Assembly (NCBI GenBank): GCA_028282505.1
Contig: JANQHV010000365.1
Coordinates: 1 to 32,140 of the forward strand
Source: SAR324 cluster bacterium
GTDB lineage: Bacteria > SAR324 > NAC60-12
DNA length: 32,140 bases
Direction: 5' to 3'
Position 1 is the stretch's first letter, and each line of letters opens with the position of its first letter. The notes beneath the pieces were generated by a model that searched no databases, was not told the DNA's origin, and was given only the letters and a program-made list of their open reading frames with translations. This document shows positions 75-31,922 of the stretch, piece after piece. Both the position numbers and the translations under genes were made by a program.

Positions 75-3000
75 ATGACTATAGACTTCAATAATATCGT
101 TGGAATAGCCACAATTTTAGGGACACTAGCTGCCTGGATTACACTGTGGCCAATAGCTCGACCTTATGTCAAAAGATTCAGAGGAAGGATATCTCGCTTG
201 ACCGCCAAAGAAGAAACGTATTTGCTTTCTCTAGCAAAGAACTTGGAACAAAAGAATCAAAAAAACAGGTGGAGTGATAGGTTCTACATCGACGTTGATA
301 CGGAATTACAAAGCCGAAAATTACCTTATGAAATTCCACCCGCATTCTATGTTGTCAAGTCTATAAACAGGCACTCCAAGGAGCAGGATTTCAATAATTT
401 ATCGAATATTGAGAAGATTGACAGTTCGAGAGGAAAAACTTTCAATTCACTAGAGGCTGCAATTGCTGAAGCACAGGACAATGCAGTTGTAGTTATTGCT
501 CCGCCAGGGGGTGGAAAGACCGTTTCTTTGAGGAATCTGGCAACGAAACAGGTTAGTCAGCGCTTATCTATGAAGACAAACTTAATTCCTATTTTTGTTA
601 ATCTAGGCTACTACACTGGTTTGAATCCTGAAGGCAGCATCACAAATTTTGATGAATTTCTAGAAGAGTTCTTTTCAACATCGGGTTATTACAATTTTCT
701 CTCGAATCGCAATTGGGAAGATCTTATCAAACAATCGCGTTGCATCTTCTTTCTTGACGGTATAGACGAACTTCCTAGAAGGCCAGGGGAGTATGAGGCG
801 CGGTGTCAAAAAATTGCAGATTTTGTTCAAGCATGGCCAGAGACCCATTTTATACTTTCTTGTCGGGAACTTGACTATAACCGTGAACTTCCTTTTCAAC
901 AGATTTTAATCAAACCATTTGATCGAAAACACATCAAGCGGTATATGGAAAAATACTTTACAAAAGTTGATTTTAAAATGATCTTTCATCAGATGGAAGC
1001 ATCAACCGGTATTTTAGAGCTATGTGAAAATCCATTCTATTTGGATATTATCTGCTACTTTTCTAAATTTACAAAAAAAATACCGGAAAATAAGACTCAG
1101 CTCTTTGATCTGATAGTTAGCCAATTCATTCAACGAGAAAACAAAAAACAAGGGACTGTGGTCGCAAAGGATGATTTCATCTTTGCCATGTCGCATCTAG
1201 CCTATTATTTAGCAGTGGAACGGATGGCAACCACAATAAACATCGACGAGTATACTGACTCTCTGGAACATGATAAAAATCGTGATTTGTGTCTACACTT
1301 AATAGACTATGCAAAAAAGGGGGAATTGTTAGAGTTTAGTGAAAAAAGTCGTGAGGTGCGGTTTATACATAATCGTTTCCAAGAGTATTTCTCATCGTTT
1401 TATATCTTGAAAAACTATAGAAGTACAACAACTGTTATTCCACAGAATTTTTTCACCAACATTTGGTGGAAAGAAACCGCGTTATTTATTGGTGGACTTG
1501 ATGAAAATGTTGATGATTTTATCAACATGATACTTCAGCATAGAGATAAATTCAGCCACGCAAACAAAGTCATTGAAAAGCTTTTAAGGCTCGAAATGAC
1601 TTTGTTGGCATTTGAGTGCATTTTTAGTAACCTGACCTTCGATAACGAGCACTTGTATAAGAGTGTTCTAGACGACCTGATTCAGGAGTTTAGAAATGGA
1701 AATACTCTGGTAAAGGCAAAAATCCTTAACGCTTTTCGATACGACAAATCAATACAAGTGAACGATCTTATTCAAAAGGCTTTAAATGATAAGAGCCTCT
1801 GGATCTCCGAACGAGCCTTCTTTATGCTCACTGGCGGTCAACTGAAAATGCAGATGAATTTTCAGAACGTGCTAGGGGAATTCTTCAGGTTTTTCATTGA
1901 AGGCAGAATAATAGCCACTTTCGTTCCCGTCGTCAAAAGTGCTAGTAAGTCAAAAATAGTAAGATATCTTTTGCCCATTTACTTTTTGCTCGTATTGGCC
2001 AGTGTGCTTTCAATTGGATTAGTTGCATATGTGTTTTATTCGTTTTTCAGCTTCATTTTTTTCGAGCTCGAATTAGCATTTACAGCAGAATGCCTGAGTT
2101 GTTTGGCTTTGCTCAATATAGGCATGTTTATAATAATTTATTGTCTAACAAATAATAGTTATCCGATTCTAAAAAAGTTTATCTTTGTGGCGCCATTAGC
2201 AACAATGATTCATTATCTGATATTTAATATACCCAACAATCTTATTTATAGAATCGTGATATTTGCTTTGGGATGGTTAGTATACCATTTATATAATCGA
2301 TACGTAAAAAAGCCAAATGAGTCTGATTGGTCAGTTGGTTCAATTACAGCTGGTGTTTTTGGGTTTTCAGTTTTAATCCCCTTCCTCAACTTTGAAGCCG
2401 TCTCGCAGACTATAAAAACTCATACTGGCATATCGATAGACCTCCAAATATCTTCAACCACTTCTATTGTAATACTACCTAGCCTATTAAGCTTTGTTGC
2501 AATCTCATTTGCCGTTTATATTTACAGGCAGATTCGGGCTTTGAATCGTTTTAATGAATACGCTGGCAAGGTTGACGGAATATTAATTGCTCATCGTGAT
2601 AATAACGAAGCTGTCAGAGAGTTCCATGAGATGTTTAACAATCTGTCATTGGTGTGGGCACAAAAGCTACTGCTTCAAAAAATCATGGAAAGGATGACCA
2701 CTCAACTACAATTATCCAGAGAACAAAAAATTTCTTTCTTAGCTCTCCTTGCGAACGTTACTACTAGTATTCATTTTCGAGATGTCATTTATCAAAACTT
2801 AGAGGAAGAGGAGAAAAACTTCCGAAGGGCAATTAAGCTTGATGTTCCTGGCAAAAAAGCCAAAAAGAACATGCCATACTCGCAAGTATTTACGTCAATA
2901 AAAAGTGAGCACGTACGACCATTGCCTCAGAAAAAACTAACGACTCAAGAAATGGATCGCAACCCTCCTGAATTTGCAAAGAATTTCAATTTGTTAAATG

Positions 3001-3590
3001 CCGTAATTATTGCTACGGGAGGTTTTGCTCTTGCGTCTTTGTTAGCAGAATCCCGGAAGTTACTGCTTCTCCCTTTTTTTGATATACCCGATGCCTACCT
3101 AAAAATAGGTATTATATTTTTTATTCATGCTTTTGCTGCGAGGCTAGCTGGAACAACTGTAGGATATGTACTATCCAAGTTGATTACTTCGCCAAAAATT
3201 GAAAATGGACCATTAATAGGTGGATGGATAATAGGTTGGACGGCATCACTGTTTCTTTGGATTTTGATACCAAATGAAATACCTGCTAGTGAGAGAATAA
3301 TATTTATCAACTTGGTAGAAGCGATTATTGTTGCCTGGGCAGTAAGGATCGTCGTAAAAAAACATGTCATGGGTCTCGACACAAAGATTTTTATGTATTG
3401 GGTCTTTTCCAATGTTGCTACTATCATATTCTTCCTCATTGTACTTAATACAGATCATTTAGCTTTGAACGTTATTGTACTTAATACAGATCATTTAGCT
3501 TTGAACGTTCTCACCAATGTTATTGGGAATTCAATAACAGGTGGTTTGGGGTGTTATCTTACTTTACGTGAAATACAAAAGTCTATCTAA
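75..3590 (+). CDS. Membrane-anchored NACHT-family STAND NTPase
   Basis: A 1171-residue protein. One N-terminal membrane helix (about residues 7-28) precedes a NACHT NTPase module: Walker A APPGGGKT (about 142-149), Walker B FFLDGIDEL (about 225-233), the sensor-like ILSCREL, and the NPFYLDIICYF helix usual after the NACHT core. From about residue 630 to the end there are roughly ten further hydrophobic segments, interrupted by a soluble stretch near 830-975. NACHT proteins are signal-sensing switch ATPases, and bacterial ones include anti-phage sensors. Here the polytopic C-terminus sits where a sensor or repeat domain is normally found, so its output may be at the membrane; that is inference. 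The start is set by GAGGTGA at 64-70, 4 bases before ATG. Near the C-terminus a 12-residue segment is duplicated exactly. The gene looks AT-richer than the xseB-wzt block. The family call is firm; the function is unknown. Confidence 0.85.
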   Translation: MTIDFNNIVGIATILGTLAAWITLWPIARPYVKRFRGRISRLTAKEETYLLSLAKNLEQKNQKNRWSDRFYIDVDTELQSRKLPYEIPPAFYVVKSINRHSKEQDFNNLSNIEKIDSSRGKTFNSLEAAIAEAQDNAVVVIAPPGGGKTVSLRNLATKQVSQRLSMKTNLIPIFVNLGYYTGLNPEGSITNFDEFLEEFFSTSGYYNFLSNRNWEDLIKQSRCIFFLDGIDELPRRPGEYEARCQKIADFVQAWPETHFILSCRELDYNRELPFQQILIKPFDRKHIKRYMEKYFTKVDFKMIFHQMEASTGILELCENPFYLDIICYFSKFTKKIPENKTQLFDLIVSQFIQRENKKQGTVVAKDDFIFAMSHLAYYLAVERMATTINIDEYTDSLEHDKNRDLCLHLIDYAKKGELLEFSEKSREVRFIHNRFQEYFSSFYILKNYRSTTTVIPQNFFTNIWWKETALFIGGLDENVDDFINMILQHRDKFSHANKVIEKLLRLEMTLLAFECIFSNLTFDNEHLYKSVLDDLIQEFRNGNTLVKAKILNAFRYDKSIQVNDLIQKALNDKSLWISERAFFMLTGGQLKMQMNFQNVLGEFFRFFIEGRIIATFVPVVKSASKSKIVRYLLPIYFLLVLASVLSIGLVAYVFYSFFSFIFFELELAFTAECLSCLALLNIGMFIIIYCLTNNSYPILKKFIFVAPLATMIHYLIFNIPNNLIYRIVIFALGWLVYHLYNRYVKKPNESDWSVGSITAGVFGFSVLIPFLNFEAVSQTIKTHTGISIDLQISSTTSIVILPSLLSFVAISFAVYIYRQIRALNRFNEYAGKVDGILIAHRDNNEAVREFHEMFNNLSLVWAQKLLLQKIMERMTTQLQLSREQKISFLALLANVTTSIHFRDVIYQNLEEEEKNFRRAIKLDVPGKKAKKNMPYSQVFTSIKSEHVRPLPQKKLTTQEMDRNPPEFAKNFNLLNAVIIATGGFALASLLAESRKLLLLPFFDIPDAYLKIGIIFFIHAFAARLAGTTVGYVLSKLITSPKIENGPLIGGWIIGWTASLFLWILIPNEIPASERIIFINLVEAIIVAWAVRIVVKKHVMGLDTKIFMYWVFSNVATIIFFLIVLNTDHLALNVIVLNTDHLALNVLTNVIGNSITGGLGCYLTLREIQKSI
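3438..3509 (+). repeat. Perfect 36-bp tandem duplication inside the NACHT gene
   Basis: Two identical 36-base units, 3438-3473 and 3474-3509, lie end to end. Each encodes IVLNTDHLALNV (residues 1122-1133 and 1134-1145), so the frame is kept. The unit ends a predicted membrane helix. Complete nucleotide identity suggests a recent slippage or unequal-recombination event. Confidence 0.97.
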
Positions 3591-23586: not shown

Positions 23587-23915
23587 ACAAAATGGCTTTA
23601 TAGGTCCATTACCATACATTTCTACTCTAAAATAAGTATAAAAAGTATTGTTTTTTTAACAAATTGGCAATATTTTCCACGATTGGTTTGTGTCTTTTTA
23701 AAATACCATTTCGGTTAAGGTTTCGGCTACCAAATTATTCCGGGAAAAAACTTTCCCTGGTTTCTCCTGAAAAACTAGAAAATGAACAGTCTTCTCTCCT
23801 TTTTTCAAGGGGAGGCGGGGAGAGCTTCGGTAAAGTACTGATTTTATTAACTGTCCCGTCTTAAGTGGATAGCGAAGGTTTCTTCTTGGAAAGCACCTAC
23901 AGCATTGAATTGATT
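23587..23915. other. Gap before the CoA transferase, with hairpin
   Basis: This 329-base stretch has no convincing gene. It contains the hairpin at 23794-23824 described separately. The open frame of the CoA transferase extends back to a GTG at 23865 but the extra residues do not look conserved. Confidence 0.4.
23794..23824. repeat. Intergenic hairpin, related in pattern to the one at 11719
   Basis: CTCTCC (23794-23799) pairs with GGAGAG (23819-23824), and inside it CCTT and AAGG pair around a T-rich loop. The CTCCTT...CAAGG...GGAGG pattern recalls the 11719-11795 element, so both may belong to dispersed repeat families. It sits just before the CoA transferase and could also attenuate transcription. 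Confidence 0.45.
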
Positions 23916-25139
23916 ATGGAAAAAGAAAATCTAAGTTCCTTTTTCAATAATTTAGTGATCACAGAACTGGCTTCTGTGCTGGCAGGTCCTCTGGTAGGCA
24001 ACTTTTTTGCGGAACTTGGGGCAAGTGTGATAAAAATTGAAAATCCCAAAACACAAGGGGACGTCACTCGCACATGGGCACTTGGAAATGAAGAATTTGA
24101 TGATGGTATTTCATCTTACTTTTCTGCAGTGAACTGGGGGAAAAAATCTATTACGTTAGATATCAAAAATCGATTAGGCAGAGATGTATTTTATGATTTA
24201 GTTAAAAAATCTGATGTTGTCATCACTAATCTTTTGCCACATTCTTTAAAAGCACTTAAAATTGATTATGAGCATTTATCAAATGTCAATTCCCAGCTCA
24301 TTTTTGCATCGATCTCTGGTTATGGTGCCAATAATTCCAGAAAAGGCTATGATGGATTGATACAGGCAGAAAGTGGATTAATGTCAATAAATGGCTATAA
24401 GAACGGAGAGCCGTTAAGGATTCCAATAGCTTATAACGATATTTTAACAGCCCATCAACTCATAGAAGGAATATTGATTGCTTTGTTACAACGTCAACTA
24501 AACGGGACCGGTACATCAATCGAGGTTTCCCTGTTTCACGGAGCAATTTCTTCTCTAATGAATCAAGCCACTAATTATTTGGTCGGGAAGAAGGTTCCTT
24601 ATCGAGCAGGTTCAGAACATCCGAATATTTCTCCCTATGGCACTGCCTATGAGTGTTCAGATAAAAAAGAAATCATACTGGCTATCGGAGACGATCAGCA
24701 GTTTTTTAAATTATGTGAAGTCTTAAATATCAAAGAATTGGCCAGCGATCCTCGCTTTAAAACAAACGACGATCGTATAAAACACAGGCAAACTTTAATC
24801 GAATTATTGAAAAAAACAATTAAGACATGGAATAGCCAAGCTTTACTCGATCAACTACACAAGAAAGGAGTCTTATCGGGCAAGGTGAATACCATAGAAG
24901 AAGCGTTGAAGATAGAAGAGGCTGAGGAAATAATAATTAATGGAAAAACATCGAGTGGAAGAGAAATCATGGGGATCAAAAAAAGCATCTTTCAACTCAA
25001 TGGAATCGGATCTAAACAGAACTTGTTGCCTCCCCCCAGACTGGGAGAGCATACCATTGAAATATTAAAAGAGGTGCTTGAATATTCTGATGAGAAAAAC
25101 AAACAATTGTTGGAACAGGCGGCGATTTTGGAAACATAA
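23916..25139 (+). CDS. Family III CoA transferase
   Basis: A 407-residue protein of the CaiB/BaiF/formyl-CoA transferase family, whose members form interlocked dimers and move CoA between carboxylates through an aspartyl-CoA intermediate. Visible: the N-terminal ELASVLAGPLVGNFFAELGA, KIENP, the catalytic Asp146 in KGYDGLIQAESGLM, and the C-terminal domain with SPYGTAYECSDKK and DPRFKTNDDRIKHR. ATG at 23916 puts the N-terminus where relatives start; the frame extends 17 codons farther to GTG 23865. Substrates cannot be named. It is followed 81 bases later by an aldo/keto reductase on the same strand, in a run ending with dehydrogenase and kinase genes. Confidence 0.88.
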   Translation: MEKENLSSFFNNLVITELASVLAGPLVGNFFAELGASVIKIENPKTQGDVTRTWALGNEEFDDGISSYFSAVNWGKKSITLDIKNRLGRDVFYDLVKKSDVVITNLLPHSLKALKIDYEHLSNVNSQLIFASISGYGANNSRKGYDGLIQAESGLMSINGYKNGEPLRIPIAYNDILTAHQLIEGILIALLQRQLNGTGTSIEVSLFHGAISSLMNQATNYLVGKKVPYRAGSEHPNISPYGTAYECSDKKEIILAIGDDQQFFKLCEVLNIKELASDPRFKTNDDRIKHRQTLIELLKKTIKTWNSQALLDQLHKKGVLSGKVNTIEEALKIEEAEEIIINGKTSSGREIMGIKKSIFQLNGIGSKQNLLPPPRLGEHTIEILKEVLEYSDEKNKQLLEQAAILET

Positions 25140-25220
25140 TCATTTTATTGTTAATTCACTTTTGCTCAAGTTTGTTTTTGTGTGAACAAGCTTGACTCTT
25201 TGGAGAGTTAGGAGGTTGTG

Positions 25221-26204
25221 ATGGAATACAGGACATTAGGACGACTGGGTTGGAAAGTTAGTGAGATCGGCTATGGTATGTGGGGAATGGGAGGCGGTGA
25301 AACCGGATGGACAGGAGCTAATAATCAACAGTCCATCATTGCGCTTAATGAAGCGCTCTCCCTGGGTTGTAATTTCTTTGATACAGCATGGAGCTACGGC
25401 AGAGGAAACAGTGAATCTTTACTCGGAGAATTGTTGCGTCAACATCCCGATAGAGAAATTCATTATGCGACAAAGATACCACCGAAAAACATGGTGTGGC
25501 CTTCTACACGCCAATGTTTACTTGAAGATATTTTCCCCCCAGATCACATTCGAGAATATACTGAGAAAAGCCTCAAAAATCTGGATGTCAGTTGCATCGA
25601 CTTGATACAATTCCATGTTTGGGAAGATGCATGGGCTCATGATGAACGCTGGCACAAAACAATAGAGGATTTGAAACAAGAAGGTTTAATCAATGCTGTA
25701 GGAATCAGTCTAAACACCTGGGAACCTTGGAATGGTATGGAAACCCTGCGTACAGGGTTGGTGGATACGGTGCAAGTCATCTATAACATTTTTGAACAAT
25801 CTCCAGAAGCTGAATTATTCCCTCTTTGTGAACAATTAAACATTGGAGTCATTGTCCGTGTTCCGTTTGATGAAGGAACACTCACCGGAACTCTAACAGA
25901 GCAATCTACCTGGCCGGAAGGAGACTGGCGAAATACTTTTTTTGTACCGGAACACTTAAAGGAATGTGTTCCTCGTGCTGAAGCACTCAAAAAAATCGTA
26001 CCAACAACGATGACCATGCCTGAAATGGCACTTCGTTTCATATTAAACAACCCCACAGTCTGTACGGTTATTCCTGGTATGAGAACTGTTGATCATGTTC
26101 GCAATAATATAAAAACCAGCGATGGAATTAAATTAATGGATGAGTTGGCTGCAGAGTTGGTCAAACATCGTTGGGACCGAGAACCAACCTGGTGGTCCCA
26201 ATAA
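25221..26204 (+). CDS. Aldo/keto reductase
   Basis: A 327-residue TIM-barrel NADPH oxidoreductase. The catalytic tetrad is visible: Asp54 (FFDTAW), Tyr59 (SYGRGN), Lys85 (ATKIPP) and His132 (QFHVWED). Late motifs GISLNTWEP, DTVQVIYNIFEQ and the cofactor-phase VIPGMRTVDHVRNN are typical. AGGAGG (25210-25215) lies 5 bases before ATG 25221, preferred over the GTG at 25218. These enzymes reduce aldehydes or ketones. Just upstream of an aspartate-semialdehyde dehydrogenase homologue, with 30 bases between, it stands where a homoserine-dehydrogenase-like reduction would be needed. That role is inference. Confidence 0.9.
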   Translation: MEYRTLGRLGWKVSEIGYGMWGMGGGETGWTGANNQQSIIALNEALSLGCNFFDTAWSYGRGNSESLLGELLRQHPDREIHYATKIPPKNMVWPSTRQCLLEDIFPPDHIREYTEKSLKNLDVSCIDLIQFHVWEDAWAHDERWHKTIEDLKQEGLINAVGISLNTWEPWNGMETLRTGLVDTVQVIYNIFEQSPEAELFPLCEQLNIGVIVRVPFDEGTLTGTLTEQSTWPEGDWRNTFFVPEHLKECVPRAEALKKIVPTTMTMPEMALRFILNNPTVCTVIPGMRTVDHVRNNIKTSDGIKLMDELAAELVKHRWDREPTWWSQ

Positions 26205-26234
26205 AGAGGTGGCATTTTTAGAACCAGTGTGATG

Positions 26235-27245
26235 ATGAACATACATATCATAGGCATCTCCGGTTTAGCCGGACAAGAAACTATCAAGCTTTTAGGGGAA
26301 CGTTCGTTTCCCGTTTCATCTTTGAAAGTATTTGGATTCAAAAAAAGTGTTGGTACGACTATCCATGATCCAAAATTTGGTAGTTTAGAAATTTTAGATC
26401 AAAGTCAAATTTCTGCTGATGACATTAAAAATTGCGATTTAGTCTTTCTGGCTACACCACCAGCTTCCAGCAACATACTTGTTAATCAGTATAATCGGAT
26501 TAATCCCAAATGTTTTATTATTGATTACAGTTCTTCCTTTAGACTACATGACAACATCCCCCTTGTTGTTCCTGAAATCAATTCGAATACCATTTCTTCC
26601 GAAAAAAGAGTCATTGCTAACCCCAATTGTACTACCATTCAATTAGTGTTGAGTATTGCTCCTCTGATCGGTCAGTATTCTATCCAACAAATCGTGGTCA
26701 CGACATTTCAATCGGCTTCTGGTGGCGGGAAAGAGGGGATAGAAATGTTATTAACACAAACGGCGTCCTACTTCAACCAAGAGAATAGGCCCAATCGCCC
26801 TAACACAGAAACCGAATATGCTTTTAACAATATCCCCGAAATTGGTTCTTTTTATGATGCATTTACGACCCACGAAGAAAATCAAATCTTCAAAGAATCC
26901 CAGAAAATTCTAGATCAGTTTGATTTGCCCATTGCGGTTACTGCAGTAAAGGTTCCCACCATGTATTGTCACTGTGAATCAATCTATCTTGAATTGGAAA
27001 ATCCATTCAAACTGGATCAAATCACTGATTCATATCAGTCCTATCCAGGGATCAAGTTTTATCCTGATAATGACATGCCTTTTCAGAATCACCTGAGGGG
27101 ATCTGACTGGGTGCATATCAGCAGGCTTCGAAACAATCCTTATTCTCAACGGAGTCTTTCATTATGGAGTGTGACCGACAATTTGCGAAAAGGTTCTGCA
27201 TTAAACGCAGTACAAATTGCTGAGTGTATTTTGCCGCTATTCTGA
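26235..27245 (+). CDS. Aspartate-semialdehyde dehydrogenase homologue
   Basis: A 336-residue Rossmann dehydrogenase. Family features: cofactor turn GISGLAGQETIKLL, FLATPPASSN, DYSSSFRLHDNIPLVVPE with the phosphate-binding Arg103, nucleophile Cys132 (ANPNCTTIQ), SASGGGKEGIE, Glu221 and Lys224 (ESQKIL), His246 (CHCES), and the closing SVTDNLRKGSALNAVQIAE. The enzyme normally reduces aspartyl-4-phosphate to aspartate semialdehyde. Seven residues before His246 stands Lys239 (AVKVPTMYCH), where the family has the Arg equivalent to E. coli Arg267 that binds substrate carboxylate. So a variant substrate is possible, and I withhold the name asd. The start is uncertain (GTG 26229, ATG 26232, ATG 26235); no close ribosome site. 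Confidence 0.85.
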   Translation: MNIHIIGISGLAGQETIKLLGERSFPVSSLKVFGFKKSVGTTIHDPKFGSLEILDQSQISADDIKNCDLVFLATPPASSNILVNQYNRINPKCFIIDYSSSFRLHDNIPLVVPEINSNTISSEKRVIANPNCTTIQLVLSIAPLIGQYSIQQIVVTTFQSASGGGKEGIEMLLTQTASYFNQENRPNRPNTETEYAFNNIPEIGSFYDAFTTHEENQIFKESQKILDQFDLPIAVTAVKVPTMYCHCESIYLELENPFKLDQITDSYQSYPGIKFYPDNDMPFQNHLRGSDWVHISRLRNNPYSQRSLSLWSVTDNLRKGSALNAVQIAECILPLF

Positions 27246-27258
27246 AGCATGATTGAAA

Positions 27259-28401
27259 ATGAAAATTTGTGAAAAGCTTTGGCACAAAGTAATCGTTGTT
27301 GCTCCTGCACAGATTGGGAATATGTTTGGTTTTTTTGATAGAGCCGGTGCATTATGTAGTGAGCCCCCTTCAAATGGTACATCAAGAACCGGAGGTCCAG
27401 GTGATTTAATCATGATCGAAAAAATTCCGAGTGATCAATTTGATGTGGTTGTTCAATATTGGATGCGTGGTTGTGATAATGAAGGATATTGGGAAGATAT
27501 CGAAGCTTTTCAAGAATTGGTGGAAGACATAAAAAACAATCCTGATAAAGAGCTCGTTCGATATTTAGTTCAGACGACCCTGAGGACTATGAAGGAGATT
27601 GGTAGTTTAGATGAAATATATTTGGATGGTTGGAGTCTAAAGATCACTATCATTAAACATTGTCCAAACAAGCAGGTTGGTTTGGGTTTAGGAAGTTCGG
27701 CTTGCAGTACCGCCATCGTCATTGCGTTGGATTATCTGTTGGGCGAGCCTCTTCGAAAAAAGGAGGAGACATTATTTCAGGAGAGCGGAATACATCCATA
27801 TTTTAGGGCAAATTTGATGGCCCAGGGAGAGGAAAAAGTTTCTGGTGCTATTTTTTTTGATAATGTGGCTCCATTGTGTATTGAAGGTGGACTCATTTAT
27901 ATAGATTATCTTCCCAACCAGTCTCTCCAATTAAGCTCACTGCCTTGGCCAGATGGACTCTTTTTTGTTACGATTACGCCAGATTTTTCTTTAGAAACCC
28001 GTATGATGAGAAATCATCTTCTCGGCAAAACCATTGATTGCAAAATGGCCAGTGATGCAGCACAGAGACGCGCAGATGTCATGCAAGGCCTCTGTACTGG
28101 AGACATAGAACGAATTATCCGCTTTGCTGGTGATCAAATCATCGAACCTTTGCGTTGGCCATTGATTCGAGGCCATGAAAAAATCAGAAGTCATATCTCA
28201 TCAAGGCAAAATCAAGGTGGGTGTTATAGCCTGGGTATTGCGGGAACTGGTCCTACCATCTATTGTCTTGCTGATTCCAGAGGAGCCGCTGATCAAATAG
28301 GTCAAGAAATACATGAAATTTGGAAAAAGCAAGGTTTCAATAACTGGTGGTTTGTTCATGAACTGAACAAACACGGAGCACGAGTGATTCATGTCTCTTA
28401 A
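27259..28401 (+). CDS. Homoserine kinase homologue (GHMP superfamily)
   Basis: A 380-residue GHMP kinase that best fits homoserine kinase. The ATP loop is GLGLGSSACS (141-150) and motif 3 is GIAGTGPTIY. Homoserine contacts known from the archaeal enzyme map onto Asn21 and Asp27 (GNMFGFFD), Asn202 (FFDNVAP), Arg251 (ETRMMR, with Thr247) and Arg299 (DQIIEPLR). Typical bacterial homoserine kinases are near 300 residues; the extra length is an insert around 55-125 (GCDNEGYWEDIEAFQELVED and following) and C-terminal WWFVHELN. It follows the dehydrogenase by 13 bases, so they are probably one operon. Product would be O-phosphohomoserine or a close analogue. I take ATG 27259 over TTG 27253. Confidence 0.8.
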   Translation: MKICEKLWHKVIVVAPAQIGNMFGFFDRAGALCSEPPSNGTSRTGGPGDLIMIEKIPSDQFDVVVQYWMRGCDNEGYWEDIEAFQELVEDIKNNPDKELVRYLVQTTLRTMKEIGSLDEIYLDGWSLKITIIKHCPNKQVGLGLGSSACSTAIVIALDYLLGEPLRKKEETLFQESGIHPYFRANLMAQGEEKVSGAIFFDNVAPLCIEGGLIYIDYLPNQSLQLSSLPWPDGLFFVTITPDFSLETRMMRNHLLGKTIDCKMASDAAQRRADVMQGLCTGDIERIIRFAGDQIIEPLRWPLIRGHEKIRSHISSRQNQGGCYSLGIAGTGPTIYCLADSRGAADQIGQEIHEIWKKQGFNNWWFVHELNKHGARVIHVS

Positions 28402-28404
28402 GGA

Positions 28405-29175
28405 CTAAGCCTCAATATGGTATTGCGCAGCGACAAATAATCGATTTCCAGTAAGATCTGTCTGTTTCAGTTCTAAATTGTCAAACATTCCCACGATTGA
28501 AAAGCCACTTTGTTGCAAAAATTGTCCGATTTCCTGGGGAAACAACATCCGCCATTCACAATAATCTTCAGTAACAGGGTATCCAGAAAGATGCCAGAAT
28601 CGCTTCCAAATCATGATCTGTTTTCTGAAGTCGAGGCGTTGATGCAAAATATATTTGCCCTGAAGGTTGGGAGTGTCGATTTCTTTTTCAATGGTCTCTG
28701 GCATGTCGTCCTGAAGGAAGCGAATATAATTCTTAATGTCCAGTATTAAAAGAGACCCTGGATGAGCATGTGCCGCAAATGTATTGAATGTTTGCTCAAG
28801 ATCCTTGTTACTGAGAGCATGCATCAGTACCGATCCCATGCATATCATCACATCGAAAGTACGATGTAAGCGGATACGACGCATATCTCCCTGAAGAAAC
28901 TGAAGGTGTTTATATTTCGATTGGGCAAATTCGACCATTTCTGGTAAATAATCAATCCCAACACAGTCTTGGCAAATCTTGGATAAATCATCAAGATTGC
29001 GCCCTGTTCCAGATCCCATATCCAGAATTGATTGAGGGGGCGCTGCTAAAAACCTTTCAAACATTCTCAAACACAGGGTCATATCGGTATACGACACGTC
29101 TAAACTGGGTGTTTGATAAACCAATTCATAAAGTTTTGGATCTTGATAAAGTGCATTCTTTACTTTTGCATCCAT
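28405..29175 (-). CDS. Class I SAM-dependent methyltransferase
   Basis: A 256-residue protein with the Rossmann methyltransferase fold: motif I ILDMGSGTGRN (50-60), acidic ribose contact in VGIDYLPEMVEFAQSK, motif II/III QGDMRRIRL and MICMGSVLMHAL. The N-terminus (LYELVYQTPS, SYTDMTLCLRMFE) resembles small-molecule methyltransferases. It is 9 bases after the radical SAM gene and reads toward the kinase gene with only 3 bases between the two stops. Acceptor unknown; O-, N- or carboxylate methylation all remain possible. Confidence 0.88.
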   Translation of the reverse strand: MDAKVKNALYQDPKLYELVYQTPSLDVSYTDMTLCLRMFERFLAAPPQSILDMGSGTGRNLDDLSKICQDCVGIDYLPEMVEFAQSKYKHLQFLQGDMRRIRLHRTFDVMICMGSVLMHALSNKDLEQTFNTFAAHAHPGSLLILDIKNYIRFLQDDMPETIEKEIDTPNLQGKYILHQRLDFRKQIMIWKRFWHLSGYPVTEDYCEWRMLFPQEIGQFLQQSGFSIVGMFDNLELKQTDLTGNRLFVAAQYHIEA

Positions 29176-29184
29176 AAAATTTTC

Positions 29185-30909
29185 TTAGACTCTTTTTAAA
29201 TTATATGAAAATCCACTCGATTCTAACCATTTTGGTACGTATTCTCGGATCTTTGCATGAGATTGGTTCTCTAGATACATTTTATAAATATATTTCCAGC
29301 CTGCATCAAAATTGACATGATGGTGGTAATCCAGAACCGAAGATACTTTATTGGGGTGTTTCATCAAGCTGCGATAAGGGGAAAAACTATAATCTTGCGC
29401 ATCAATATCATTTTTAATGATATGATCAGAGATAGTACATGCATGTTGTAGAGCTTCTTCCTGATTCATCGTTCGATGTTCCCACTGTTTACCAACGGCA
29501 AAAGCAATTTGTTTACCCCAAACAGATGTTTGATATTGTACTAGCTCATCAGCTCCCTCTATCGCATACTTTTCTAATTGTTCAGGCTGCATAATCGGTA
29601 CGAGGGTAGCAGGATTGAAATCAGGCATCCAGAGAAACACATGAACACTACTACCACTTTGCTGCTTTAAAAAGTCAATCGTGTTTTTCACAGTATCATC
29701 CGTTTCTCCTGGAAATCCCACAATAATGCCTAGTGATGAATAAATTCCCACTCGGTTACAATTTACAATTGCTTGGGCATTTTGTTGAATGGTTACCCGT
29801 TTATTCATATTGTCCAAAATAGTTTGAGAACCACTTTCCACGCCAATAAAAATATAGCGACACCCTGCCTCTTTCAGCAGTCTTACAAAATCCAAATCCC
29901 CCAACTCTGGTGCTCGGGCATTGCAAAACCAGGTTAGTTTTTTAGAAAGACCAGACTCAATTAACAAATGACAAAATTGTCTTATCCTTTTTTGAGGAAT
30001 CGTAAATAAGGAATCAACTAACTCAATATGATGCACTCCCAAACTTTCTAAGACAGTCCATTCTTCAAAAATAGTTTCGGCCGTTTTCATCCTGAATTTT
30101 GCATTTGCCGAAAGAAAAGGGTAATTGCAAAACGCACAACGATAAGGACAACCACGCACACTTTCATATTGGAACATCCCATTTCTTTCTTTCACAAATT
30201 CTCTGGTCGGATAACATCTCCAACTGTTGATATCAATTACTGATAATGGAGCAGTTGATGTATGGAACAATCCATTGTTTCTCCAGTAAAGTCCCGGTAT
30301 TTTGTGTAATTGTGTCTCATCTTTTGTCAATACCTGGTTCAAAATAGCAGAAAGGTTCTTTTCGGCCTCTGATGTTAAACAAAAATCAAAAGGAAAGGCT
30401 TGGAGACGCTCTTTTTTGAATCCCCTAACTAGTGCTCCACCAATGATCACGATCTTATTTAAATGTTCCAAAGCCTTCAAAATTTTCATCAAAGAGGTCA
30501 ATTGGATGATGTGAGTTGTTGAAACCGCAATGACATCAATGGTTTCTAATGCCGCATACCAATGGGCATTCACCTCAAAATTCCTATTGCTTCCACTGAC
30601 TTTAAAAAACCCCTCTATTGGTGCAGAAACAGGTTCGTATCCAGCCTCAATTGCTTCACCATACAAGAAGTGAATTGCTCCTCCCAGGCAAACGTTTTGC
30701 TTCTCTTCTAGATTAAAAGGAGAAAAATGAGTTTCTTTACGATATCGAACGACAGAGTCCAATTGTTCCACATTTTCTACTCTGAAAATATCTTGTAACA
30801 ATTGATCGGTTGTCTGAGCAAATGCATTAACCGCAGGATCTCCCTGATACCCTTCATAGGCAGATCCTCCCAGAATTAAAACTTTTTTGTGAAGGCTGGT
30901 TTTTGTCAT
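29185..30909 (-). CDS. Cobalamin-binding-type radical SAM enzyme
   Basis: A 574-residue protein. Residues about 80-195 look like a B12-binding Rossmann domain (VIAVSTTH, KIVIIGGALVRGF, FDFCLTSEAEKNL), but the DxHxxG cobalt-ligand motif is absent. The radical SAM barrel follows with Cys254, Cys258 and Cys261 (RGCPYRCAFCNYP), the FIGVESGSQ strand and IIVGFPGETDD. Residues from about 430 form an uncharacterised C-terminal region. Relatives methylate unactivated carbons or make rings and thioethers. GGGGGA lies 7 bases before the ATG. The next gene downstream is a methyltransferase, and the divergent neighbour is another. I cannot assign a reaction. Confidence 0.87.
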   Translation of the reverse strand: MTKTSLHKKVLILGGSAYEGYQGDPAVNAFAQTTDQLLQDIFRVENVEQLDSVVRYRKETHFSPFNLEEKQNVCLGGAIHFLYGEAIEAGYEPVSAPIEGFFKVSGSNRNFEVNAHWYAALETIDVIAVSTTHIIQLTSLMKILKALEHLNKIVIIGGALVRGFKKERLQAFPFDFCLTSEAEKNLSAILNQVLTKDETQLHKIPGLYWRNNGLFHTSTAPLSVIDINSWRCYPTREFVKERNGMFQYESVRGCPYRCAFCNYPFLSANAKFRMKTAETIFEEWTVLESLGVHHIELVDSLFTIPQKRIRQFCHLLIESGLSKKLTWFCNARAPELGDLDFVRLLKEAGCRYIFIGVESGSQTILDNMNKRVTIQQNAQAIVNCNRVGIYSSLGIIVGFPGETDDTVKNTIDFLKQQSGSSVHVFLWMPDFNPATLVPIMQPEQLEKYAIEGADELVQYQTSVWGKQIAFAVGKQWEHRTMNQEEALQHACTISDHIIKNDIDAQDYSFSPYRSLMKHPNKVSSVLDYHHHVNFDAGWKYIYKMYLENQSHAKIREYVPKWLESSGFSYNLKRV

Positions 30910-30992
30910 AATGAATCCCCCGTTTTAAAATTCAGTTGCACACTTCTACCATCTAAAGTATGGTCCGCTAAAAGAAGGTCTCTCACTCAAAC
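30910..30992. promoter_or_regulatory. Divergent promoter region
   Basis: The 83-base gap separates the radical SAM gene (-) from the second methyltransferase (+), so promoters for both must lie in or near it. I see no clear -10/-35 pair. It is short enough for one regulator to control both. Confidence 0.4.
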
Positions 30993-31922
30993 ATGTTTCG
31001 TCTTTTGCAATCAATAGAAACCCGTATCATTTCTGATGTCAAATTACAAAATGAAATGGATAACATGAGTCAATTTGAAAACTATAATAAAACTTCTCAA
31101 AACTATGACAAAACCCGCTCACCATCTGGTATGGAAATCATTCTAGGTTGTCTGGCTACATTGCAAACACCCCTTGAGCAAATGACAGTACTTGATGCGG
31201 GTTGTGGTACGGGCAACTACTCCCTGGCCCTCATACCTCATGTTGACCAGATAGAGGCTGTTGACCTGAATCCCAAAATGCTGGAAATTGCATCCGGCAA
31301 GTTAAAGCCCTTTATTCTGGAAGGTCGGATTCGGTTACACTGTGGGGATATCGTGACGTTACCTTTTGCCAATGAAACTTTTGATGCCGTTTTGATCAAT
31401 CAAGTGCTCCACCACCTTAAAGACAGCGCTAGTGACCAGTATCCAATCCATTGCCAAATTTTTCAGGAGATTCACCGCACTCTCAAACCTGGTGGTCTTG
31501 TTATCATCAATACCTGTTCGCAAGAGCAAATCCGCCGAGGCTTTTGGTTTTACCCCCTCTTTCCGGAAACAGTTGAGCAGTATTGTCAAATCTATATGCC
31601 TTTGGACACGTTACAAGCCCTCCTGGAGGAGTGCGAGTTCACCATGAAGGGTCGCTTTGTGGGCTTAGATACCATGCTTCGCCAAGCCGTATATTTTGAT
31701 CCAGAAGGACCATTGAAAAAAGAATGGAGGGATGGAGATTCCTTTTTTGCCTTAGTCACAGGTGACCAATTGGACCGTGCTTGTGAGGAAATCCGGGCAA
31801 GGAAAGCCAATGGAACGCTCATCTCCTATATGGAAGAACAAGACAGGAGTAGAAAGTACATAGGACAAAATACATTCTTGTGTGTATCCCGAGGTGCTTC
31901 CAACCTGGCCAGTCACCTTTAG
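30993..31922 (+). CDS. Class I SAM-dependent methyltransferase
   Basis: A 309-residue protein with motif I VLDAGCGTGNYSLAL (66-80), the EAVDLNPKMLEIA acidic loop, HCGDIVTLPFANETFDAV, and LHHLKD followed by HRTLKPGGLVIINTC. This is the Methyltransf_11 pattern of menaquinone/ubiquinone-type and natural-product methyltransferases. In-frame ATGs at 31056 and 31065 would give a shorter start (MSQFENYNKTSQNYDK resembles the usual family beginning), so the true start is uncertain. It is divergent from the radical SAM gene and ends the cluster. Confidence 0.86.
   Translation: MFRLLQSIETRIISDVKLQNEMDNMSQFENYNKTSQNYDKTRSPSGMEIILGCLATLQTPLEQMTVLDAGCGTGNYSLALIPHVDQIEAVDLNPKMLEIASGKLKPFILEGRIRLHCGDIVTLPFANETFDAVLINQVLHHLKDSASDQYPIHCQIFQEIHRTLKPGGLVIINTCSQEQIRRGFWFYPLFPETVEQYCQIYMPLDTLQALLEECEFTMKGRFVGLDTMLRQAVYFDPEGPLKKEWRDGDSFFALVTGDQLDRACEEIRARKANGTLISYMEEQDRSRKYIGQNTFLCVSRGASNLASHL

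Follow-up and report, generated by a model that had tools for sequence, protein, structure and literature searches.

In aspartate-semialdehyde dehydrogenase (ASADH or Asd), a lysine at the phosphate site and an arginine at the carboxylate site position the substrate, and in the Haemophilus influenzae enzyme the exchanges R270K and K246R leave 0.1 and 3.3% of the activity, respectively (PMC3276109). Replacing the amino-binding glutamate of Escherichia coli Asd lowers the activity with aspartyl phosphate and shifts specificity towards malyl phosphate (PMC5481828). The superfamily also comprises the malonyl-CoA/succinyl-CoA reductase of Sulfolobales (structure 4dpk), which uses a coenzyme A (CoA) thioester. 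For the subsequent phosphorylation, synthesis of rhizocticin-type antibiotics, which employs homologues of homoserine kinase and threonine synthase, gives a precedent for a homoserine-kinase homologue serving outside of threonine formation. Here, we describe a locus of a SAR324 cluster bacterium in which relatives of these enzymes are encoded side by side. The stretch analysed, hereafter the window, is the complete contig C26, 32140 bases long, from a draft genome of 7.57 Mb in 692 contigs with 88% completeness. At positions 23865-28401, four open reading frames (ORFs) lie next to one another on the plus strand. The encoded proteins are a CoA-transferase of class III, an aldo/keto reductase (AKR), a dehydrogenase related to ASADH and a GHMP kinase resembling homoserine kinase (Table 1). 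All four ORFs are intact, the catalytic residues expected of the first three enzymes are present, and each protein matches its own family far beyond chance, in agreement with the family assignments in a previous annotation made from the sequence alone (hereafter the original prediction).

We tentatively propose, at somewhat less than an even chance, that the four genes form a dedicated and horizontally acquired side pathway in which the logic of converting aspartate to phosphohomoserine is applied to an aspartate-like amino-dicarboxylate for producing a specialised metabolite. In this sequence of reactions, the CoA-transferase would activate one of the carboxylates as CoA thioester, which would then be reduced to the semialdehyde by the ASADH-like enzyme with its altered phosphate site. 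The AKR, replacing a homoserine dehydrogenase, would convert the aldehyde to the alcohol, and phosphorylation by the kinase would result in an O-phosphohomoserine analogue suitable for a later pyridoxal phosphate (PLP) enzyme not encoded on the contig. All enzymes are members of known families; our literature search did not reveal any described cluster with these enzymes, as the original prediction had supposed, and relative to this search both the combination and the substitutions described below are new.

The dehydrogenase is homologous to Asd of the beta type over the full length and matches PF02774 (E 5.8e-33) and PF01118 (E 1.3e-21). Its score for PRK14874 (279.9 bits) is above the cut-off of 223, whereas the one for TIGR01296 (258.2 bits) stays below the required 324.2; the genome's own Asd reaches 489 and 457 bits, respectively. 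Sequence identity is about 30-39% to Asds of the class and 35% to the genome's own Asd. In an alignment with 13 class Asds, the catalytic residues Cys134 and His248 as well as the amino-group-binding Glu216 are found to be kept, and Arg105 is the conserved counterpart of the phosphate-binding Arg102/103 of ASADH, leaving one of two phosphate ligands in place. In contrast, Gln219 replaces the phosphate-orienting lysine and Lys241 the carboxylate-binding arginine, both of which are present in all 13 class enzymes. In addition, the coenzyme loop reads GFKKS instead of ASARS, and Ala-Thr-Pro is found instead of Ser-Ala-Gly. Because the lysine-to-glutamine and arginine-to-lysine exchanges affect positions invariant in Asd, and in view of the low residual activities of the H. 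influenzae mutants (PMC3276109), it is unlikely that the enzyme acts on ordinary aspartyl phosphate. The replacement of one phosphate ligand would be compatible with turnover of a CoA thioester, albeit without proving it. The Sulfolobales reductase can only serve as a working analogy in this respect, as the window enzyme belongs to the bacterial beta type and its match to 4dpk is confined to the N-terminal domain (E 2.8e-11). Several genomes of the class, among them G011, G013 and G025, carry two Asd-type genes with similar scores.

The kinase is a homologue of the solved homoserine kinases 4p52, 4rpf and 1fwk and shares with ThrB of the GHMP family the ATP loop (GLGSSACS), the DNVAP motif, the C-terminal GxGPT motif and the Asn/Asp/Arg/Arg set of the homoserine site. 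However, it is only about 25% identical to ThrB, possesses additional loops following Asp29 and preceding the ATP loop and stays under both curated cut-offs, with 116.5 bits for NF002288 (E 1.2e-33; cut-off 194) and 78.6 bits for TIGR00191 (E 3.6e-22; cut-off 168.25). The retention of homoserine contacts claimed in the original prediction applies to Asn23, Asp29, Asn204, Arg253 and Arg301, all aligning with the homoserine site of four ThrBs, where we take the individual contacts to correspond to those of the Methanocaldococcus jannaschii enzyme. It does not extend to the pocket histidine present in all four ThrBs compared (His139 in E. coli, preceding DNVAP), the position of which is occupied by Phe201. 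No match to the kinase was obtained in 57 other genomes, the majority of which belong to the class. Likewise, no relatives were returned when 84,980 species genomes (two scans) and viral contigs (three scans) were scanned for sequence patterns, with the restriction that this approach requires identical short peptides and may overlook relatives; the second scan of genome contigs used an alignment with artificial filler rows solely for steering the choice of peptides. Plasmids only gave ordinary ThrB of the enterobacterial type at about 25% identity, and phages gave no match at all. In contrast to the rhizocticin system, neither a threonine-synthase homologue nor a phosphonate gene was identified in the window.

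The AKR (PF00248, 177 bits, E 5e-52) bears the complete catalytic tetrad Asp55/Tyr60/Lys86/His133 and has no counterpart at E ≤ 1e-40 in the 51 other class genomes that were searched. Among plasmids, the best matches are encoded on Tistrella mobilis pTM3 (64% identity) and in Embleya sp. NBC_00888 (54%), where a gene for an adenylation-carrier-thioester reductase (A-PCP-R) protein shares its terminal bases with the AKR gene. Enzymes of the A-PCP-R architecture convert a carboxylate to the aldehyde. The following gene encodes a halogenase of the BesD/HalD type in Tistrella, while in Embleya a peptide synthetase gene and a threonine-synthase-like PLP enzyme gene follow. Because the closest AKRs adjoin A-PCP-R genes in two unrelated bacteria, members of this clade probably reduce aldehydes that carboxylate-reducing enzymes derive from activated carboxylates. 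The same job can be presumed for the window AKR, with the difference that the aldehyde would stem from the ASADH-like enzyme instead of an A-PCP-R protein and that a kinase follows. The other three window genes are not present at the Tistrella and Embleya AKR loci. The pTM3 locus (L085:6951-15125) is an unannotated cluster with genes for the adenylation-carrier-reductase, the AKR, the halogenase, a desaturase and an ATP-grasp ligase, and looks like an amino-acid antibiotic cluster; an alignment of its adenylation domain did not lead to a substrate assignment. The corresponding Embleya cluster spans L086:8673-20869.

The CoA-transferase matches PF02515 (309 bits, E 5.7e-92) and has kept the catalytic Asp163 within a GYD motif, which places it in class III. 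The closest named kind with dicarboxylate substrates is succinate--glutarate/hydroxymethylglutarate CoA-transferase (SUGCT), sharing the catalytic aspartate motif and matched at the level of structure 9br6 (E 9.7e-59). However, in the best NCBIfam model, succinate-glutarate CoA-transferase, the window protein only reaches 277 bits, far under the cut-off of 750. It belongs to a large family, and relatives in the class show identities of up to 40%.

Table 1. Genes of the four-gene set in the window. The likelier start codons were chosen by reading the sequence.
Predicted product	Position	Strand	Likelier start
Class III (CaiB/BaiF) CoA-transferase, dicarboxylate kind	23865..25139	+	ATG 23916
Aldo/keto reductase (AKR)	25218..26204	+	ATG 25221, AGGAGG upstream
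ASADH-like dehydrogenase, altered substrate site	26229..27245	+	ATG 26232
Homoserine-kinase-like GHMP kinase, extra N-terminal loop	27253..28401	+	ATG 27259

For evaluating whether the set might simply serve threonine synthesis, the remaining genome was inspected for the housekeeping enzymes. A standard asd gene (the 489-bit match to PRK14874) is located on C123, hom on C567 and thrC on C96. As to the homoserine kinase, a separate candidate gene was likewise found, albeit not for a ThrB of the GHMP family: the other GHMP kinases of the genome are, judged by reading their sequences, galactokinase, IspE and two sugar-kinase-like proteins. An alternative enzyme is known from Desulfovibrio vulgaris, where a relative of shikimate kinase was shown by complementation to be the homoserine kinase (PMC5764234). 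Two proteins of the shikimate kinase family are encoded in the genome, one of them being the ordinary shikimate kinase, which scores 112 bits on the Desulfovibrio homoserine kinase model NF040667. The other one, encoded on C92 (L094:1462-1992), has this model as its best family with 166 bits (cut-off 197), the next family following at 106 bits. Since the C92 protein matches the Desulfovibrio model best, it is likely the housekeeping homoserine kinase, and the window kinase would be an additional enzyme. Other candidates for this housekeeping step were rejected, with scores of only 52 bits for a ThrB_alt protein of the APH type, which is encoded beside an apparent polyketide-type gene, and of only 27 bits for a homoserine kinase of the phosphoglycerate-mutase-like type. 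Apart from the weak match of the window kinase, a true GHMP-type ThrB (208 bits) is present in just one of the 52 class genomes, G044; all remaining matches score less than 47 bits and resemble IspE and further kinases of the GHMP family, of which only the one from the window genome was read. Because GHMP-type ThrB is missing from nearly all of these genomes, proteins of the C92 type are probably the homoserine kinases of the class, which draws attention to a bacterial class making threonine without GHMP-type ThrB. In G044, the thrB gene (L021:1465-2373) adjoins an ORF resembling ribonuclease HII. With asd, hom, thrC and a candidate gene for homoserine kinase at other sites, a housekeeping role of the four-gene set was rejected, and the idea of a dedicated set advanced in the original prediction is sustained.

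The route preferred in that prediction, if taken strictly as a second path from aspartyl phosphate to O-phosphohomoserine with the AKR as homoserine dehydrogenase, is weakened by closer inspection. Glu216 of the dehydrogenase, the Asn/Asp/Arg contacts of the kinase and the PRK14874 score would all be in line with it, but the dehydrogenase lacks both the lysine and the arginine on which Asd activity depends (PMC3276109) and the kinase its pocket histidine. Moreover, an aspartokinase is not encoded in the window and the genome already possesses asd, hom and a candidate homoserine kinase, rendering this route distinctly improbable. Improbable, too, is the competing reading of the original prediction, in which the dehydrogenase acts on a CoA thioester, if the substrate lacks an amino group; succinyl-, malonyl- or a methylated dicarboxyl-CoA would then yield a hydroxy acid for phosphorylation by the kinase. 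The relationship of the CoA-transferase to dicarboxylate-specific enzymes and the altered phosphate site of the dehydrogenase would fit; however, Glu216 and the amino and carboxylate contacts of the kinase have been retained, and replacing the glutamate in E. coli Asd diminishes activity with aspartyl phosphate in favour of malyl phosphate (PMC5481828).

The four genes may also not constitute one pathway, with an AKR-dehydrogenase-kinase unit, or singly acquired genes, lying beside an unrelated CoA-transferase by chance. The original prediction had suggested looking for genomes in which the four genes stay adjacent, and in everything searched not even a second locus with any two of them was found; consequently, it is gene order and enzyme logic only that argue for the unity of the pathway, and coincidence of neighbours, though unlikely, retains a real share of the probability. 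Several further observations weigh against the proposed side pathway. The CoA-transferase gene, which has ordinary relatives in the class, is separated by 78 bases from the AKR gene and may be unrelated to the other three. The G+C content of the set resembles that of the remaining contig, hence composition gives no sign of recent transfer, and neither a downstream PLP enzyme nor a transporter was seen in the remainder of the contig. In addition, with Arg105 retained, the dehydrogenase might still use an acyl phosphate. On the other hand, all genes are on the same strand, the last three are spaced by only 24 and 7 bases, the prediction places no terminator-like site within the set, the order of enzymes is chemically sensible, and both AKR and kinase are foreign to the class.

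If the four enzymes indeed act together, the side pathway would represent a natural route from a carboxylate to a phosphoalcohol that combines enzymes of the aspartate pathway with CoA activation. It would be useful for the preparation of homoserine analogues and could point to a new amino-acid-type product. More specifically, the beta-carboxylate of an amino-diacid might be converted to the alcohol with the aid of a CoA-transferase and of an ASADH that has been adapted to CoA thioesters, and a repurposed homoserine kinase would add a phosphate leaving group on the way to a specialised amino acid; that such a new route exists is a possible but rather doubtful conclusion. The substitutions found at the substrate sites give rise to two precise and testable predictions on the specificity of ASADH and homoserine kinase.

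Downstream of the set, a convergent methyltransferase gene ends 3 bases beyond the kinase gene. It belongs to a region (28405-31922) reaching the contig end, in which the methyltransferase gene and one for a radical SAM protein of the B12 type, both convergent with the set, are followed by a divergent methyltransferase gene. The radical SAM protein is PhpK-like (187 bits versus a cut-off of 600), and distant relatives on Rhodococcus fascians pA21d2 and Rhizobium rhizogenes pTi are encoded next to LOG-type (TIGR00730) genes, in the latter case also adjoining an isopentenyl transferase gene. At the other end of the window (75-3590), a large protein is encoded which reads as a NACHT-type NTPase, with an APPGGGKT loop, the motif LDGIDELPRR and C-terminal membrane segments, and could be a STAND/defence-like protein.

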